53,443 nucleotides of DNA from Clostridia bacterium. Its GTDB lineage: Bacteria; Bacillota; Clostridia; Oscillospirales; Acutalibacteraceae. The notes under the pieces are model-generated. The model was not told the DNA's origin, did not search any database, and saw only the letters and a program-made list of their open reading frames with translations. The translations under genes and the position numbers were made by a program. Of this stretch, positions 1,170 to 43,684 are shown piece by piece. The stretch covers positions 1 through 53,443 of the forward strand of contig JAFTLT010000025.1 of assembly GCA_017452785.1 (NCBI GenBank). Reading direction: 5' to 3'. Within the stretch, counting starts at the first letter, position 1. Each line of letters begins with the position of its first letter.

Positions 1170-3875
1170 ATGAAAACATTGAAAAAAATCTTATGTGTAA
1201 TGCTTGTTGTGGTTATGTGTCTGACGAGTGTGCCGTTTGCTTATGCTGCAGATGATGTCGAATATCAGAACGGTGATATAATTGAAATTGGCAGTTTTCC
1301 TCAAAGTGAAGTTACCAACAGGCTTTTAATCAGCAAGTTGAATGAACTGCCGTTAGAATGGATATCTTACGGCTATTACAGTGGCGACGGTACTCATGGT
1401 TCAATGTCAGCCGGTGATTGGATGAAATATGCTGATGTTCAATATGAGGGTGAGAAATACAGGGCGGTTAACTTTGAGCAGTATAGACCCTCGCATTCGG
1501 TAAATAAAAATCCGGGGGCTGGAAGTAGCTCCTATCAATATGCCAACGGGTACTTTGTCAATAACATATATTGGTTCAAGTATGAACCTATTGAATGGAT
1601 TGTGCTTAATGCTGATGAAGGATTATTAATCAGTAATTCTATATTAGACGCTCAATATTATTCAAACGAAAGTTATTCGTCTGGATATGGCACGTTTAAT
1701 TCACCAGAATGTACTTATTTTACTAATGATTATATAAGCAGTTCATTGTGTAAATGGCTAAATAATACTTTTTTAGACTGTGCCTTTGAGAATAATAATA
1801 TAACAAGTATAGACCTTTTAATTAGAAGTGAAGCAGAAAGTTTAACGGATACTATAAGAGGAGCTAACGGAACAGATTATGCTTCTTGTCAGGGCCTTAA
1901 TAGTCATAACTTGCTGTATGAAAGTTGGTGGCTGAGATATGCCGGTGAATCAGTAAATTATAATTACTGCAGTTATGTTACTAATTCAGGCTGTGCTCTT
2001 TCTCAACCTAGAATGCTGCAAGGTGTTCGCCCGGTAATATCAGTTGATTTTTCATCAAATGAAGATACTACCACCCCTGAAACTCCTGAACAGGGTGATG
2101 ATACATCAGATATCATTAAACCTGCCATTACTGTTGATAGAAAAGAATTCTTTACTAAGCAGCACTTGAACTTTGTGAAGGGTATATATAACACACTCAC
2201 AACAGATTTTCGCTTTGCAAATACCCTTTGGGAAAACATGGATAGTGTCGGACAAAATACAGCTGAATTTGTCCACGATATAATCGAGGGTTTTGTTGAG
2301 GTAATATCTTTTAAGATTTTTGACGGCCTTGAAAGCATAAAAAATCCCTATGATGCCATACTTCTTGATTTCCTTGCGGCAGATACAACCAAGTCATTTT
2401 ATCAAGATACTGTTAAAAATGATGCCTTGACGGTATCGGTAGGTATTGTCAATGACTTAATAAAAATGTTCGATAATGAATACTCCTGGGCAGAAGGTTT
2501 TGACATAGAAAAGGAACTTCAGAGCTTGCTTAATGCTTCGGACTATTCCGGCAATAAACTTCATGAAGGACTTAATACATTATTCCTCGGCAAGGGTAAA
2601 GAAGAAGTAACAGCAGTTTTTCAAGGCTTTGATTGTTTCGGTAAAGTTCTGAGCAACCTGAGCGACGGTTTGAGTGTAGTTGACTGTTTTGTAGAAATGC
2701 TCAGATTTACAGCTGCTATTGAGGCATACCATAATTCATCACAAGTCTTCAAGCAAATATTGAAAGATGTAGCTTCTGAAATGTATAATGTAAATCAAAA
2801 GTTTGCCGAGAAGTTCAATGAGTCACTTAGTATATACACAGAGTGTATGAATTACGATGCAATTGTAAATGCTGTTCTCGAACACGGTTTACACAACGGC
2901 TTAAGTCTTATTCAGGATTTGACGAGCGAAATGCTTGCAGATGCAACATTTTCTTTGATAATGAAAGCATTTAAGGTCGGTAGTGATGTGGCAGGAAAAA
3001 TAAATGCAGCACTGTGGGCTGTAGACACAGGTTTCAGTATTTCTAATATGCTCACAGGAAATGACACATTAGTCAATTGTCGCAGACTTTTAAGAGCTAA
3101 CTATATGCTCGATGTTGCGTCATATAACATTATGAAAAAATATGAAACAACACTGAATAATAAAGAATCTTATAGGGCTGCTCTTTTATTTGACAGTTCA
3201 TTTACATTCTTTAAAAATGTACAGGTTTACTCTTTGGATTTATACAAAACCTATTGTGAAAGCAGTTCAACCAAATTGTTCAGCTTTAAGAAAGGATATT
3301 TCAGAAGTGAGCTTCAAGAAACCGTAAGCAGACTCAATACTTGGAAACGAGTTAAATGTCATGATTACAGTGAAATTTTAGGAATGACGGTGTTTGATAT
3401 TAACTCATATGGTTCTGCAACAGTGAACATATACAGAAAAGGGGATAACACTCTTGTAGGTAGCATTGTAGACGGTAAATCCACACTTTACAGTAACGAT
3501 GTTTCTTCAATTTCCGTTTCGGGTGAAACAAGTGTAGCCTTGCCGACACTTGACGATTACAGAGTTGAAGTGGTAGCAATGCAGGACGGAATTGTGAATC
3601 TCAGTTATGACGAATATGAAAACTTGCAGTGCATAAATGCACAAACTTTTGAGCCTGCTAATTTAACACAAGGCAATACATACACATTAAATCCGGAAAC
3701 CAATACTCTTGACAGAGACGACGGTGTTATCATTCATCAAAATGGTGAAATCGAGGGTTGCTCCTGCAACTGCCACGCATCAGGCATAAAGAAATTTTTC
3801 TTCAACTTCATTCTCTTCTTCCAGAAGCTCTTCAAGAAAAACGCTGTCTGCGATTGCGGTGCAGCACACTATTAA
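1170..3875 (+). CDS. secreted DUF6273-like surface protein with C-terminal Cys-rich motif
   Basis: The start is the ATG at 1170, preceded at 7-9 nt by AGAGAGG; a GTG at 1161 is in frame but sits in the ribosome binding site. The product is about 901 residues. Residues 1-27 are a signal peptide (KKIL, hydrophobic core, AYA cleavage). Residues about 35-310 resemble DUF6273 (IGSFPQSEV near the start, WFKYEPIEWIVL, and VRPVISVD at the end), a domain common in secreted Clostridia proteins. A Thr/Pro/Glu linker (about 310-330) leads to a long, mostly helical region (about 335-780) that I do not recognise. The C-terminus is unusual: CSCNCH, a hydrophobic GIKKFFFNFILFFQKLF segment, then CDCGAAHY. It may anchor or cross-link the protein at the cell surface, which is inference. 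It lies alone under a promoter with XRE-type operators. Confidence 0.75.
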   Translation: MKTLKKILCVMLVVVMCLTSVPFAYAADDVEYQNGDIIEIGSFPQSEVTNRLLISKLNELPLEWISYGYYSGDGTHGSMSAGDWMKYADVQYEGEKYRAVNFEQYRPSHSVNKNPGAGSSSYQYANGYFVNNIYWFKYEPIEWIVLNADEGLLISNSILDAQYYSNESYSSGYGTFNSPECTYFTNDYISSSLCKWLNNTFLDCAFENNNITSIDLLIRSEAESLTDTIRGANGTDYASCQGLNSHNLLYESWWLRYAGESVNYNYCSYVTNSGCALSQPRMLQGVRPVISVDFSSNEDTTTPETPEQGDDTSDIIKPAITVDRKEFFTKQHLNFVKGIYNTLTTDFRFANTLWENMDSVGQNTAEFVHDIIEGFVEVISFKIFDGLESIKNPYDAILLDFLAADTTKSFYQDTVKNDALTVSVGIVNDLIKMFDNEYSWAEGFDIEKELQSLLNASDYSGNKLHEGLNTLFLGKGKEEVTAVFQGFDCFGKVLSNLSDGLSVVDCFVEMLRFTAAIEAYHNSSQVFKQILKDVASEMYNVNQKFAEKFNESLSIYTECMNYDAIVNAVLEHGLHNGLSLIQDLTSEMLADATFSLIMKAFKVGSDVAGKINAALWAVDTGFSISNMLTGNDTLVNCRRLLRANYMLDVASYNIMKKYETTLNNKESYRAALLFDSSFTFFKNVQVYSLDLYKTYCESSSTKLFSFKKGYFRSELQETVSRLNTWKRVKCHDYSEILGMTVFDINSYGSATVNIYRKGDNTLVGSIVDGKSTLYSNDVSSISVSGETSVALPTLDDYRVEVVAMQDGIVNLSYDEYENLQCINAQTFEPANLTQGNTYTLNPETNTLDRDDGVIIHQNGEIEGCSCNCHASGIKKFFFNFILFFQKLFKKNAVCDCGAAHY

Positions 3876-38890: not shown

Positions 38891-39790
38891 ATGAAAGATA
38901 TTTTTCTCATTGTTGCTCTTGTTGTTATGACGGTGCTTTGTGCAGTTTTACTTGCTCTTCTTATCATCAATAAAAAGAAAACCCGTGCTTTGACACAGAG
39001 CATTGATAAATTCATCAAAGACGGCACTATGACCGAGCTTTCTACCTCTGACGGAGATTTTGCTCACCTGCAGAGTAATGTCTGTGAGCTTGAAACAAGA
39101 CTTATTCAGGAGCATGAATACACCAAGCTTGAAGCCAAGAATAACACCGAGTTCATCTCCGATATTTCACATCAGCTGAAAACTCCGCTTGCAGGGCTTC
39201 GACTTTACTGCGAAATGGAGCATAACACTACACCGAGCAGTCACACAGAAAAAGAGCTTGTACTTATCAGCAAAATGGAAAAACTTATCTACAATGTGCT
39301 TAAGCTTGAAAAAATCCGTAGCGATACCTATGTGATGAACTTTGAAGAAACAGAGCTTTCCGACCTTTTGCTTGACCTTAAGGCAGAGTTTTCTGCTCTT
39401 TTCCCAACTAAAACTATCACCGTTAAAGGCGGCGGTTCTCTTCGTACAGACAAAACCTGGCTTCATGAGGCTCTCGGTAATGTTATCAAGAATGCCTGCG
39501 AGCATACCAAGGTTGACGGAAAGGTTGATATTCTTATTGAACAAGCCGAGAAAAGTGTCAGCGTGATTATTGAAGATAACGGTGGCGGTGTACCAGAAAA
39601 AGAACTGCCTATGCTTTTCAGAAGATTTCACCGTACGGAAAATGCTTCACCCGACAGTGCAGGTATAGGTCTTTCTATCACCAAAGCAATAGTTGAAAAG
39701 CATCACGGCACAATCACAGCAGAGAACATCGAAAATGGTCTTCGTGTAGCTATGTGCTTTCCTATAATTGATGCTAACTTGAAGCTTTAA
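38891..39790 (+). CDS. sensor histidine kinase with a minimal N-terminal membrane segment
   Basis: This 299-residue protein has one N-terminal transmembrane helix (about 4-27), no extracellular sensor domain, an H-box FISDISHQLKTPLAGLRLYCEM (His about residue 97), and a HATPase domain with the N-box NVIKNACEHT, G1 EDNGGGVPEKEL, F-box and G2 SAGIGLSITKAIVEKHHG. Kinases of this shape often sense through a partner ABC transporter, which fits the exporter genes downstream. It is co-transcribed with the response regulator. Confidence 0.9.
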   Translation: MKDIFLIVALVVMTVLCAVLLALLIINKKKTRALTQSIDKFIKDGTMTELSTSDGDFAHLQSNVCELETRLIQEHEYTKLEAKNNTEFISDISHQLKTPLAGLRLYCEMEHNTTPSSHTEKELVLISKMEKLIYNVLKLEKIRSDTYVMNFEETELSDLLLDLKAEFSALFPTKTITVKGGGSLRTDKTWLHEALGNVIKNACEHTKVDGKVDILIEQAEKSVSVIIEDNGGGVPEKELPMLFRRFHRTENASPDSAGIGLSITKAIVEKHHGTITAENIENGLRVAMCFPIIDANLKL

Positions 39791-39807
39791 GGCAAAAAAG
39801 AAAGCAC

Positions 39808-39836
39808 TTGACATTGATAGCCAAGTGCTGTATAAT
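39808..39836 (+). promoter_or_regulatory. consensus promoter of the plus-strand small RNA
   Basis: TTGACA (39808-39813), exactly 17 bp, TATAAT (39831-39836). An 8-bp inverted repeat, AGCACTTG (39803-39810) and CAAGTGCT (39822-39829), overlaps the -35 and spacer; it could be an operator or the terminator of the kinase gene. No protein-coding start follows within 300 bp on this strand. Confidence 0.7.
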
Positions 39837-39842
39837 ATAGTC

Positions 39843-39930
39843 AAGGGGTAACCGTTCAAAGCGGTTGGCCAAAATGGTTATTTATATTTGAACAAACAAC
39901 CGTCACTTTGCAGAGTGGCGGTTGTTGCAT
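39843..39930 (+). ncRNA. candidate small antisense RNA ending in a shared terminator
   Basis: Transcription from the consensus promoter would start near 39843 and end at a 13-bp hairpin (39895-39907 with 39914-39926, AACAACCGTCACT/AGTGGCGGTTGTT, one G-U pair). The predicted RNA is about 85 nt, has no convincing ORF, and includes a small stem AACCG-ttcaaag-CGGTT (39850-39866). It is antisense to the 3' end of the small ORF on the other strand. Known type I antitoxin RNAs have this layout; this one is predicted only from sequence. Confidence 0.55.
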
Positions 39931-39986
39931 TTAATCCTTATAGTAACTGTATATTTGAATATATGTACCGTAATGATTATAGGCAT
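39903..39986 (-). CDS. 27-residue peptide ORF, candidate type I toxin
   Basis: The ORF starts at the ATG at 39986, 8 nt after a strong AGGAGG (an ATG at 39990 in another frame is only 4 nt from it and gives a 19-residue Tyr-rich peptide, MYAYNHYGTYI...). The chosen peptide starts MPIIITVHIFKYTVTIRIK and ends CNNRHSAK: a run of alternating beta-branched and polar residues and a short charged tail. The last eight codons lie inside the transcription terminator hairpin shared with the antisense RNA. Peptides of this kind with an NNRHSAK-like tail seem familiar from Firmicutes genomes, but I cannot verify it. Toxicity is a hypothesis. Confidence 0.5.
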   Translation of the reverse strand: MPIIITVHIFKYTVTIRIKCNNRHSAK

Positions 39987-40050
39987 ACATAACACCTCCT
40001 TTCGGAAGTGACGTACCAACCGCCTTACATCGTCTCTTGACTACGCAACG

Positions 40051-40078
40051 ATAATACCACATTATAATATTTTGTCAA
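40051..40078 (-). promoter_or_regulatory. promoter of the small peptide transcript
   Basis: On the minus strand TTGACA (40078-40073) is followed after 16 bp by TATTAT (40056-40051), so the transcript should start near 40044 and carry a leader of about 58 nt before the ATG at 39986. The leader contains TAGTCAAG and GCGGTTGG, which also occur near the start of the opposing RNA. Confidence 0.6.
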
Positions 40079-40113
40079 TAATTGTTGCTTGCCGTAATTT
40101 AATATGTTTTCCG

Positions 40114-40162
40114 AATCGGGCACAGTTAGAGATACATTTTTACCTGTGCCCGATTTTCTTAT
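40114..40162 (+). terminator. strong hairpin with T-tract upstream of the ABC operon
   Basis: AATCGGGCACAG (40114-40125) and CTGTGCCCGATT (40144-40155) form a perfect 12-bp stem, then TTCTTATCTT. No gene on the plus strand ends just before it; it may insulate the ABC operon from upstream transcription. Confidence 0.7.
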
Positions 40163-40216
40163 CTTACGAAATCTTAAGGTAAAAGTCACCTAATCGTAAG
40201 GTTGGTAGTATATCAT
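40163..40216 (+). promoter_or_regulatory. ABC operon control region with the shared response-regulator-like site
   Basis: CTTACGAAATCTTAAGGT (40163-40180) repeats the motif at 38141-38158 with two changes. A further TCGTAAG (40194-40200) makes an inverted copy. A -10 candidate TATCAT (40211-40216) has no good -35, as expected for an activator-dependent promoter. The start codon is at 40246 after AAAAGGAG. Confidence 0.65.
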
Positions 40217-40245: not shown

Positions 40246-40935
40246 ATGAACATTATAGAATGCAAAAACCTCACCAAAGAATACTTAAGCGGTGAAAACG
40301 TTGTCAAAGCCGTTGATGATGTAACTGTCAGCTTTGAGCAGGGAGAATTCTGTGCCATCACAGGTCCGTCAGGTTCTGGTAAGTCAACCTTTCTTCACGT
40401 GCTCTCTTCACTCGAAAACCCCACAAGCGGCAATGTTTACTACGGTGGGAAGTCACTTTCATCATATAACGACAATCAGCTGTCTATTCTTCGCCGCCGT
40501 CGCTTCGGCTTCGTTTTTCAGGCCTACAACCTTGTTCAGGAGCTTACGGGGTACGAGAATATTCTGCTTCCCGTTATGCTTGACGGTAAAAAGCCTGACG
40601 AGGAGTATCTTAACAAGGTTATTGATATGCTCGGCATCCGTGACAGATTAGAGCATCTTCCATCGGCACTTTCAGGCGGTCAGCAGCAGAGAATTGCTAT
40701 CGCAAGAGCACTTGCCAACAGACCGGCTATTCTTTTTGCTGACGAGCCTACGGGTAATCTTGACGGCAAGAGTGGCCGTGAGGTACTGTCACTTCTTAAA
40801 TATGTCAGTAAGCAGCTTGGCGTTACCCTTATTCTTGTAACCCACGACCTGCACGTTGCAGAGCAGGCAGAGAGAATTCTTACCATTGAGGACGGCAAGA
40901 TTGTTAAAGACACCAAGCCCGCACCCTCTGTATAA
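40246..40935 (+). CDS. ABC transporter ATP-binding protein (MacB/BceA-like)
   Basis: This 229-residue ATPase has the Walker A GPSGSGKST (about 41-49), Q-loop VFQAYNLVQ, signature ALSGGQQQRIAIARALA, Walker B ILFADEPTGNLD and H-loop VTHD, all in the pattern of the LolD/MacB/BceA family that works with FtsX-like permeases. It is 19 nt upstream of the permease gene and is preceded by AAAAGGAG. In this family ATP hydrolysis drives mechanical movement of extracytoplasmic parts, for antibiotic detoxification or peptide handling. Confidence 0.93.
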   Translation: MNIIECKNLTKEYLSGENVVKAVDDVTVSFEQGEFCAITGPSGSGKSTFLHVLSSLENPTSGNVYYGGKSLSSYNDNQLSILRRRRFGFVFQAYNLVQELTGYENILLPVMLDGKKPDEEYLNKVIDMLGIRDRLEHLPSALSGGQQQRIAIARALANRPAILFADEPTGNLDGKSGREVLSLLKYVSKQLGVTLILVTHDLHVAEQAERILTIEDGKIVKDTKPAPSV

Positions 40936-40954
40936 CTCAGGGAGGTGAACAGCA

Positions 40955-43684
40955 ATGAAAAGAAAACTCACAATTAACACCCTTGCTATGGGTAACCTGA
41001 AGCAAAGGCGAAAGCAATATACAATTCTTATTATCGGCATTATACTTGCTATGGTTTTCTCGTCGGGGATTCCTTTTTTCATTTCCTGCATGCAGACATC
41101 AATAACTGAAACCACAAAACGCCTTTACGGCACGCAAGATGAGATATACTTAAAAGCTATGGATGTTGATTTTGAAAAAGGTAAGTTGGATGGTTACATT
41201 TCAAATTACAGCCTTGCACATACAATAGGTTTTGCCTTCAAGGATGAAGAAAGCAATGATGTCGGTACTGCGGTTGCGTGGCTAGATGAAAAGGCCGTGG
41301 AGATGTATTATCCCTTCCTTTATGAGGGCAGATTACCCGAAAAAGCGGGCGAAATTGCCGCCGAAAGACAGTCCCTTATGCAACTTGGTTTTGCAGATGC
41401 AAAGCTTGGCGAGCAAATCACACTAACAATGAAAATACCAGATGGCAAGGATTTTTCAAAAAAAACAGAAAAGAGAACATATACCCTTGTTGGCGTTGTG
41501 TGCAATAAAAAAACAGCGATATGTGAGTGGCGAACCTCACAAGAAAGCGCATATTTACCTGCTGTCTTCGTGAATAAAGGCGAGGAAGTCGCTGTGGGCG
41601 GTAAAGAGTTGCTCGTTGCTTTTGTGAATTTTGATAACTATCAAAGTTGGAGCAACGAAAAGAAGCACGATTATTACCAGTTTTCCGGAAACACATTGAC
41701 AATAGGAACAAGAATACACAAAGTTCACAATGATAGCTATGAAGGAATAAGCGGCACAGACATATTGAGCACTATGCTTTACAGTACAGCTTTTGCAGTA
41801 ATACTAACCCTTGTTTCCTGCCTTGCGATTGTCAATTCCTTTGCTAATAATCTTCGTGAAAGAAAAAAGCAGATTGGTATGTTCCGTGCCGTTGGTGCAA
41901 CAAAAAGACAGATTATTTCAATTTATGCCCGTGAAGCATTCATCATCAGCCTTATTTCTGCTCCCATAAGTATTTTTATATCCTACTTCGGCGTTAAACT
42001 CATAACAAAAATAATGGGCGACGACCTTATATTCATGCCGGAAGTATGGATTCTTTTTGCAGGTGCAGGGCTCGGAATTATCTGCGTTATGTGTGCGGCT
42101 CTTATCCCTCTTATTCCAATTTCAAAAAGCTCACCTATGCAGGCTATCCGTAATGTTGATTATACAAGAAAGCTCCGAAGAAAGAAAATCCGTTCACAAA
42201 AACAGTTTAATGTATCATCACTTCTTGCCAAAAGAAACATCACCCTTGCCCGTTCAAGACAGATAATTGTCAGCATTATTCTTGCAATTACAATCATCGG
42301 CTCGTGTTATGGCTTCTCGGCAATAGAGTACGAACTAAGCGAAGTTGGCTACGGACAATATGAATACGGACTCTATAATGACGACCACTTTGAAGAGGAT
42401 TTTGTAAACCCAATTCTTGATTTCAGAGGTTACTGCAATAATGATGTCACTGAGCTGATGTCAACGGGATATTTTTCCGAGGCTGTGGCATCCAAAAAAG
42501 GTACGGTAAACATTCTAAGAGATGAATTCACCGATTACGAGCTGATTATTAATATCTGCTCTGATACAGGAAGCGTATACAAGGATGTTGCCAAGGGGCT
42601 TACAAAGGAAAACTTCAAGGAAAAGGTCACAAAAAACTTTTCAAAAAACTATCTCAATGTAAAGGAAAAGTATAATTACAATTCTCTTTTGCTCACCGCA
42701 ACTTTTGCAAGCATTGGCGAAGAATACTTTGAAAGAATGAAAGATGATATTGTTGAGGGTGAAATTAACATTGACAAGCTCAATTCCGGTGAGGAGATTG
42801 TGCTTGTGGCACCTCAGAAAATCGGTATAGAGATCGATGACGATTTTCTTGAATACTACCGTATTGATGACAGTAACCCCAATGAGGTTAAAAGAGACTA
42901 CCTTGAAATACAGGAGTGCTCTTTTAAGGTTGGCGACGAACTCGATTTAAGCATAGTTTGCACCTCTTCTAAGGATAAAAAACAATTTGTGAGAACAGAC
43001 AGAAAGGTAAAAATAGGTGCAATTTTAAAGGATGTTTCAGGCTTTGACTGGGAGTTTCCAAGCTTTTACGGCATAGGCGTACTCACAACCAATGAGGCAA
43101 GTCAGCTTTTCGCTCCCGAGCTTGATTACAACAGCATTTACCTTAAAACAAAGAACAATATTGATGATGAAATGAACAGCATAATTGTACCTTATCTTGA
43201 AAACATCAGCCTTTCTATTCCTGACGGCAGATTAAGAAACTTGTATGAATTTGCAAGGGACAATGAGCAAAGCATAAAAATTGGTCTTTTCGGTATAATT
43301 TGTATTATTAGTCTGTTCCTTGCAATTTGCGGTTGTGTTGTCAATAATGCTCTTACTGCAAGAATACGTGAAGGCAAAAGAGAAATAGGTACACTACGTG
43401 CTGTTGGTGCAGATTTAAAAGTAATTTCCTCGTCATATATCAAGCAGTTGCTATCAATTTTCGGTTGGGGTTATGGCATTGGTTTTGGTCTTTACATTGG
43501 AGGCTACTGCTTATTTGCAATAATGAACAATGTTATGGAATGGAACAAGGAGCTATACGGTATAAAGCTTGTTGAAACCTTTTTGATGTGTGCCGTATTG
43601 TTTATCCTCTGCGCTGTGAACCTTATCCTCAAAATTAAACAAGAAATGAAGCACAGCATAGTCGAAAACATCAGAGAACTGTAA
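40955..43684 (+). CDS. FtsX-like ABC transporter permease with two FtsX domains
   Basis: This 909-residue protein has transmembrane helix 1 at about 23-46, a large extracytoplasmic domain (about 47-265), three helices at about 275-400 (STMLYSTAFAVILTLVSCLAIVNSFANNLRERKKQIGMFRAVGATKRQI marks the FtsX domain), a second N-terminal helix at about 435-455, another extracytoplasmic domain (about 460-765), and a final FtsX domain (TARIREGKREIGTLRAVGADLKVISSSYIKQ, about 795-895). Duplicated FtsX domains with large external parts are typical of MacB-like/BceB-distant exporters in Firmicutes. It is 11 nt before the SH3-domain gene. Confidence 0.9.
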   Translation: MKRKLTINTLAMGNLKQRRKQYTILIIGIILAMVFSSGIPFFISCMQTSITETTKRLYGTQDEIYLKAMDVDFEKGKLDGYISNYSLAHTIGFAFKDEESNDVGTAVAWLDEKAVEMYYPFLYEGRLPEKAGEIAAERQSLMQLGFADAKLGEQITLTMKIPDGKDFSKKTEKRTYTLVGVVCNKKTAICEWRTSQESAYLPAVFVNKGEEVAVGGKELLVAFVNFDNYQSWSNEKKHDYYQFSGNTLTIGTRIHKVHNDSYEGISGTDILSTMLYSTAFAVILTLVSCLAIVNSFANNLRERKKQIGMFRAVGATKRQIISIYAREAFIISLISAPISIFISYFGVKLITKIMGDDLIFMPEVWILFAGAGLGIICVMCAALIPLIPISKSSPMQAIRNVDYTRKLRRKKIRSQKQFNVSSLLAKRNITLARSRQIIVSIILAITIIGSCYGFSAIEYELSEVGYGQYEYGLYNDDHFEEDFVNPILDFRGYCNNDVTELMSTGYFSEAVASKKGTVNILRDEFTDYELIINICSDTGSVYKDVAKGLTKENFKEKVTKNFSKNYLNVKEKYNYNSLLLTATFASIGEEYFERMKDDIVEGEINIDKLNSGEEIVLVAPQKIGIEIDDDFLEYYRIDDSNPNEVKRDYLEIQECSFKVGDELDLSIVCTSSKDKKQFVRTDRKVKIGAILKDVSGFDWEFPSFYGIGVLTTNEASQLFAPELDYNSIYLKTKNNIDDEMNSIIVPYLENISLSIPDGRLRNLYEFARDNEQSIKIGLFGIICIISLFLAICGCVVNNALTARIREGKREIGTLRAVGADLKVISSSYIKQLLSIFGWGYGIGFGLYIGGYCLFAIMNNVMEWNKELYGIKLVETFLMCAVLFILCAVNLILKIKQEMKHSIVENIREL

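Follow-up and report, generated by a model that had tools for sequence, protein, structure and literature searches.

A candidate type I toxin-antitoxin-like unit of Clostridia with two convergent small RNAs and a short cationic peptide

Fst/par of pAD1, a representative of the Fst/Ldr family, is described in the excerpts used here (PMC7472228) as a pair of convergent promoters whose transcripts overlap at their 3' ends in a terminator hairpin, with a further hairpin hiding the Shine-Dalgarno sequence and a toxin which ends in a charged C-terminal tail. For BsrG/SR4 and TxpA/RatA of Bacillus subtilis, the excerpted account reports an antisense RNA whose overlap with the toxin mRNA covers its 3' part and the end of the ORF (PMC4147584). 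Excerpts of PMC8309996, PMC6563280 and PMC6733600 complete the literature used for the comparison.

Here we describe a locus from the window, i.e., the whole analyzed stretch of 53,443 nucleotides of a Clostridia bacterium (contig JAFTLT010000025.1). A first-pass annotation of this DNA had proposed two convergent small RNAs with a common terminator and a small peptide. We consider it rather likely that the locus is a chromosomal type I toxin-antitoxin-like unit, whose family did not turn up in the libraries searched.

Layout of the unit in the window

The unit is flanked by a histidine kinase gene (38891-39790) and a pair of ABC transporter genes (40246-43684), all named from their translations. 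Both promoters of the first-pass annotation were found at their places: the antisense promoter (TTGACA-17-TATAAT, plus strand, 39808-39836) matches the consensus in 12 of 12 positions and the facing toxin mRNA promoter (TTGACA-16-TATTAT, minus strand, 40051-40078) in 11 of 12. They take the top two ranks among seven promoter-like sites within 2 kb, compared with 3.3 sites on average in shuffles. On the minus strand, the putative toxin mRNA carries the repeat X, which consists of an outer part (TAGTCAAG, 40036-40043) at the 5' end and an inner part (AAGGCGGTTGG, 40016-40026). These are followed by a hairpin of the form CACTTCC-GAAA-GGAGGTG (39993-40010, helix 4 of the family), which hides the Shine-Dalgarno sequence, and by the candidate toxin ORF (39903-39986) encoding the 27-residue peptide MPIIITVHIFKYTVTIRIKCNNRHSAK; ribosome site and ORF are present as first described. 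The likewise present hairpin T1 (39895-39926, readable on either strand, 16-nt arms with 88% complementarity) is the predicted 3' end of the antisense RNA and the site at which the 3' ends of both RNAs would overlap. It also carries the last codons of the ORF, which encode the peptide tail NNRHSAK, and the UGA stop codon.

The predicted antisense RNA, the putative antitoxin (plus strand, 39843-39926), was delimited by its promoter, with a start about 7 nt past the -10 element, and by T1. On the toxin strand (minus), X' inner (39858-39868) and X' outer (39838-39845) are the partners of X inner and X outer within a longer toxin-strand RNA, and the 5' arm of T1 is an alternative partner of X inner. 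In the plus-strand reading, X' outer corresponds to TAGTCAAG where the antisense RNA starts and X' inner to GCGGTTGG near this start. That both motifs occur near the 5' ends of both RNAs had been noticed at first pass and was borne out. The first-pass annotation was silent on the underlying inverted DNA repeats (39838-39845/40036-40043 and 39858-39868/40016-40026), which make the RNA 5' ends alike and not complementary, and on T2, a second terminator-like hairpin for the toxin strand (minus strand, 39803-39829), which overlies the -35 element of the antisense promoter. The duplex of the antisense RNA with the short toxin mRNA, which overlap by about 44 nt, was calculated at -81.6 kcal/mol.

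The hairpin word of T1 recurs at three further sites of the genome, and T1 therefore looks like a terminator used elsewhere by the host. Near position 1501 of the loci L003, L004, L006 and L008, the hairpin word CCGTCACT..AGTGGCGG resembles terminators found elsewhere in the same genome and occurs without a peptide. Another palindrome with 20-nt arms, probably the terminator of the kinase operon, is located just outside the unit at 40114-40155 of the window and is also present at the related site without a unit described below.

Distribution of the family

Units were picked from the fetched loci by ribosome site, ORF and tail pattern, while the antisense side was ignored. The resulting 112 units encode 98 different peptides, whose length of 25 to 43 residues depends on the chosen start. 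A non-redundant set of 97 of the 112 units was used for X:X' pairing, codon and wobble tests and T1 energies, and 98 units, with one duplicate kept, for the T2 count.

The 27-residue peptide as query matched 9 of 300 genomes from the window's taxonomic family. Alignment searches, in which the window's own genome is counted, gave matches in 10 of 35 genomes at the genus level, 12 of 398 at the level of the taxonomic family and 5 of 398 at the phylum level; at the class level four of 391 genomes were found with the first alignment (three partial) and three of 391 with a broader one. Up to 9, 9 and 10 copies per genome were counted. The distribution of the peptide unit is patchy. A DNA pattern of tail and hairpin matched at least 118 stretches of the genome collection, and the matches listed (80 of at least 118) belong to Lachnospiraceae, Oscillospiraceae, other Clostridia or unplaced Firmicutes. 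With a looser DNA pattern 12 stretches of viral contigs were obtained. A toxin-like ORF is present in 11 of them, and L217 has just the tail and the antisense half; three of the 12 (L214, L219 and L220) look identical in the printed part. The stricter pattern had no match in viral contigs. In phage records the window peptide found one full-length match and a second peptide none. These loci form an unnamed family of predicted two-RNA units in Clostridia and some viral contigs.

Gene annotation misses most small peptides of 25 to 40 residues. An 861 kb replicon of Vescimonas fastidiosa, filed as a plasmid record, carries units at sites where no gene is annotated. In the locus L065 (393-2204), tail and hairpin are repeated five times in tandem at intervals of about 450 bp; the first copy has lost its toxin half, and the others encode two different peptide types. 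In L158 a match to a group II intron domain (Rfam, 3268-3403) adjoins the unit.

No Rfam family reached its gathering score in the window; the five matches within 39700-40200 were sub-threshold, the best with E 0.012, and none came near gathering, and seven Rfam matches in 18 loci did not cover a unit. Pfam returned chance-like matches only (PI3K_rbd 0.069, FAM101 0.024), PHROGs five weak families of unknown function (best E 0.0092), and for the window peptide no match was obtained in NCBIfam; the PDB gave none either. Within the literature searched, no paper contained the tail NNRHSAK, the listed matches to RHSAK appeared unrelated, and no description of the family came up; a small-protein catalogue may still contain it. 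The peptide family thus reaches no Pfam, NCBIfam, PHROGs or Rfam model, although it is present in gut and rumen Clostridia with as many as ten copies in a genome.

Conserved signals, peptide and RNA folding

The proposal of two convergent small RNAs is supported by the promoters of the relatives. A facing antisense promoter with a score of at least 9 (maximum 12.5) was found in 112 of 112 units (mean 11.9) versus 26% of shuffles, and a toxin promoter with this score in 90% of the 112 units (mean 10.9) versus 14%; the promoter shuffles, like those of hairpins and T-tracts, preserved single-base composition only. The idea of a terminator shared by both transcripts held in part. The predicted 3' ends do overlap at the hairpin, but the sharing is uneven. 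In 97 of 97 units T1 folds more tightly on the antisense strand (mean -20.8 kcal/mol) than on the toxin strand (-14.1 kcal/mol), a difference caused by the UGA stop codon, which introduces a C-A mismatch in the toxin strand. The T-tract at T1 is also richer on the antisense strand (5.1 T in nine, versus 4.0 on the toxin strand), where it is supplied by the lysine codons before the tail. T2, a hairpin with T-tract over the antisense promoter, occurs in 42% of the 98 units (44% of all 112) versus 4% of shuffles. Its mirror image on the antisense strand over the toxin promoter was detected in 12% of the 98 units versus 4% of shuffles, and a symmetric second terminator was rejected as far weaker than T2. 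Most units lack a strong T2, so the long mRNA and its 3' end are putative. Of the 14 bases that follow X', 50% are T, versus 29% in the mirror. The Shine-Dalgarno hairpin is conserved in the Lachnospiraceae-type alignment described below with 95% of cells paired, and in one subgroup a hairpin at the 5' end of the toxin mRNA (helix 1) covaries in 5 of 5 pairs with 72% of cells paired.

The codon pattern indicates that the peptide is under purifying selection. In the core outside the hairpin, peptides of the MP type (362 pairs from 49 sequences) have a dN/dS of 0.21 and those of the MR type (341 pairs from 33 sequences) one of 0.09, as against 1.05, 3.64, 2.30 and 3.83 in the other two frames of the same DNA; the pairs differ by 3-35% and share ancestry, and the statistic ignores kinship. 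The first-pass annotation had named a conserved RNA with an unconserved 27-codon frame as the pattern that would speak against it; the values obtained speak for the peptide. In all 112 units the stop is TGA at the same place.

Beta-branched hydrophobic and polar residues alternate along the peptide, whose net charge ranges from +3 to +10 (mean 5.3). The moment of 90 peptides is 1.46 at 170 degrees, the angle of a beta strand, versus 0.59 at 100 degrees, that of a helix, and 0.73 after shuffling, which agrees with the remark at first pass that the peptide lacks the usual hydrophobic helix. Structure was modeled for the 35-residue peptide of the relative L158, the window's 27-residue peptide being below the length limit of the tool. 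AlphaFold2 placed strands at residues 2-7 and 10-15 (block pLDDT 90, 82, 58 and 66; mean pLDDT 75; pTM 0.31), so the relative's peptide is predicted to be a beta hairpin with a loose cationic tail and not a membrane helix.

Within a unit the two RNAs have similar 5' parts when both are read in the same direction (14.3 for the own partner, 9.0 for foreign ones, 6.5 shuffled). Their complementarity does not gain from the own partner (6.5 versus 6.2 with foreign ones), and direct repeats of the Fst type were rejected since the RNA 5' ends are not complementary. Of the likeness to Fst/par seen at first pass, the layout stands and the role of the 5' repeats in RNA-RNA pairing does not. On toxin-strand RNA which extends past T1, X and X' form 26.5 pairs on average and at least 10 pairs in 94 of 97 units; X with foreign 3' parts forms 17.1 pairs (73%) and with shuffled 3' parts 11.5 (52%). 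RNAalifold predicted the ribosome-site hairpin, T1 and X:X' independently in two alignments (A2 and A3), which comprise 32 and 34 of the 97 units; units of a third subtype (GAGTGAAC start) and further diverged ones are in neither. Two-sided changes over the whole structure were found in 13 of 32 pairs of the Lachnospiraceae-type set and in 7 of 25 pairs of the other alignment, in which only the inner X:X' is predicted. In the Lachnospiraceae-type set 70 cells changed on both sides versus 27.9 in shuffles, and none of 500 shuffles reached 70, for a structure derived from the same alignment and for related sequences. Covariation over relatives, named at first pass as a check, is present.

Further evidence comes from the mismatches between X and X'. 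In the 97 units, 217 mismatches are compatible with G-U pairing on the toxin strand versus 42 on the antisense strand, where a ratio near 1.1 is expected from base composition. Counted by clusters, the result was 49 to 2, and 14 clusters were tied. When the three columns preceding GCGG were removed, in 92 of 97 units (five without the GCGG motif were left out), the count was 151 to 26, and 32 to 5 by clusters with 13 ties (p = 7e-6). This asymmetry shows that the X:X' pairing is under selection in the toxin-strand RNA, which in turn implies a longer toxin mRNA.

Decay, function and relation to known systems

Similarity scoring of 116 loci with the tail pattern yielded 97 with both halves, 15 with the antisense half only, three with the reverse and one with neither. 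On reading the three reverse-scoring loci, L070 proved to have an ORF without leader or ribosome site, L180 to have lost the toxin N terminus and L103 to have a diverged antisense half which is still present, so that none of the three, among 116 loci scored, is a complete toxin half without antisense. In the 15 loci that lost the toxin half, the antisense promoter still scores at least 10.5 in 12, and 10, 9 and 7.5 in L086, L159 and L112, respectively. A cruder sorting by regular expressions (20 antisense-only versus 6 reverse, 82 both, 7 neither) was replaced by the similarity scoring because several intact units failed the expressions. In L186, from the window's genus, the antisense half and T1 remain and a MITE-like insert (AAGGAAGCACTGATTAAT ... 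ATTAATCAGTGATTCCTTA) takes the place of the toxin half; L028, apparently the same locus as L082, is an antisense-half remnant of the same kind. As judged from the sequences, this one-sided loss is the decay expected of a toxin and its antitoxin, and the peptide is probably harmful to its own cell.

These findings bear on what the unit produces and for what purpose. If the antisense RNA or T1 were the functional product and the peptide a mere by-product, the higher scores of the antisense promoters (mean 11.9 versus 10.9) and the survival of antisense halves beyond toxin halves would fit; the purifying selection on the frame outside T1, the invariable position of the TGA stop and the conserved ribosome-site hairpin make this highly improbable. 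The peptide might instead be a useful secreted or membrane peptide, such as an antimicrobial or signaling beta hairpin, whose dose is set by the antisense RNA and which is no self-toxin. Its charge of +3 to +10 and its amphipathic beta pattern recall cationic beta-hairpin antimicrobials, and many copies (9, 9 and 10) are present in some genomes. We nevertheless regard this explanation as unlikely, since the unit has no signal peptide, processing or transport genes and since it is the toxin half that is lost and the antisense half that is kept.

A different question is what X and X' are for. They could be inverted repeats that mark the ends of a small mobile element, with the RNA helix as a by-product, and the units are indeed multicopy, patchy and, in L065, arranged in tandem about 450 bp apart. 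Moreover, in a genome of the same genus the paralogous locus L205 has the kinase and transporter genes without a unit, which L184 and L185 contain. However, both promoters, which flank X and X' externally, are part of the stretch that L205 lacks, and mismatches arising from a DNA repeat or quasi-palindrome repair would be even on both strands, whereas those observed are wobble-compatible on one strand only. Transposon ends were rejected on both grounds, and we give the mobile-element origin very little credence. The 5'-3' helix could also act as a lock as in hok or AapA and keep the ribosome site hidden as long as the 3' end is untrimmed; toxin mRNA pairing of this kind is known for aapA/IsoA and hok from the excerpted account (PMC6733600). 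In the folding comparison, whose counts covered 94 and 90 of 97 units, the ribosome site was equally closed with and without X' (unpaired probability 0.081 in the long and 0.077 in the short mRNA), and the start codon was slightly more open in the long form (0.46 versus 0.36). Because the site lies in its own hairpin in both forms, with 8% unpaired, X:X' is not needed to hide it, and hiding by X:X' was rejected as not seen in folding; we hold the lock as a whole to be doubtful. X:X' may rather be a stabilizer of the mRNA, a guide of its folding or a temporary shield of X' from the antisense RNA, in place until the latter is needed there.

Returning to the toxin-antitoxin-like unit, comparison among the relatives bears out the peptide frame, both promoters, the ribosome-site hairpin, T1 and an X:X' pairing selected on the toxin strand. 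The minus strand would give an mRNA for the 27-residue cationic peptide, whose core consists of two alternating beta strands (a predicted beta hairpin), and the plus strand an antisense RNA of about 85 nt ending at T1. Toxin-strand RNA would often pass T1, which is weak on this strand, and continue to T2 or to the U-tract behind X'. The ribosome-site hairpin would silence the mRNA, and X:X' would make it compact or stable. The antisense RNA, which repeats the mRNA 5' end at its own 5' end, would pair with the mRNA 3' half, at T1 and in the long form also at X'; as it begins with a copy of X, it could displace the mRNA's X at X'. This pairing would block the end of the ORF and expose the duplex to RNase III. 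On depletion of the antisense RNA the peptide would be made and the cell harmed, probably at the membrane. The unit likely helps to maintain prophages or genomic segments or takes part in the response to stress.

If the peptide is toxic, type I toxins extend beyond membrane helices. Apart from this, two tests used here need nothing but sequences and can be transferred to other candidate loci: the wobble asymmetry, which tells the strand that carries the selected RNA fold, and the one-sided decay, which tells whether a peptide is dangerous without its partner.

One feature that defines type I systems, a cis-encoded antisense RNA overlapping the toxin mRNA, is predicted here from the antisense promoter in 112 of 112 units and the overlap at T1. 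The other would be toxicity of the small peptide in the absence of this RNA, to which the one-sided decay (15 versus 3) points indirectly. Among other known families, residues 6-16 of one member are weakly similar to the N terminus of the YrzI family (TIGR02413), with 13.5 bits versus a cut-off of 47.05 bits and E values of 1 or better in 3 of 37 members (best 0.014). The toxins of CD2517.1-RCd8 and other C. difficile type I systems have 50-53 residues and the features of type I toxins in the excerpted account (PMC6563280) and, by this description, differ from the present peptides.

With Fst/par of pAD1 the units share the features named at the outset and, in one subgroup, the 5' hairpin of the toxin mRNA. 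They differ by inverted instead of direct repeats, by the lack of complementary 5' regions of the DRa/DRb type, by an overlap which holds the last codons and by a predicted beta peptide in place of a hydrophobic helix; the PXXXG/C motif of Fst occurs in none of the 98 distinct peptides. The likeness to BsrG/SR4, also drawn at first pass, is supported for the layout, as the convergent antisense RNA overlapping at the 3' end is shared with BsrG/SR4 and TxpA/RatA. Differences are the absence of a family match, a peptide without a hydrophobic helix, the presence of inverted repeats where both RNAs start, and an overlap of about 44 nt with the short mRNA versus about 120 nt in the excerpted description. 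With hok/Sok and aapA/IsoA of Helicobacter, as far as the excerpts describe them, the units have in common the long-distance 5'-3' pairing in the full-length mRNA, which is here predicted with covariation. In contrast to these systems, the helix adds no hiding of the ribosome site in folding, and the antisense RNA lies at the mRNA 3' half and starts with a copy of the mRNA 5' end. The comparison thus places the units near Fst/par and BsrG/SR4 in layout and near aapA in predicted mRNA folding, each time without a defining feature that was tested, and they are probably a new family of type I systems.
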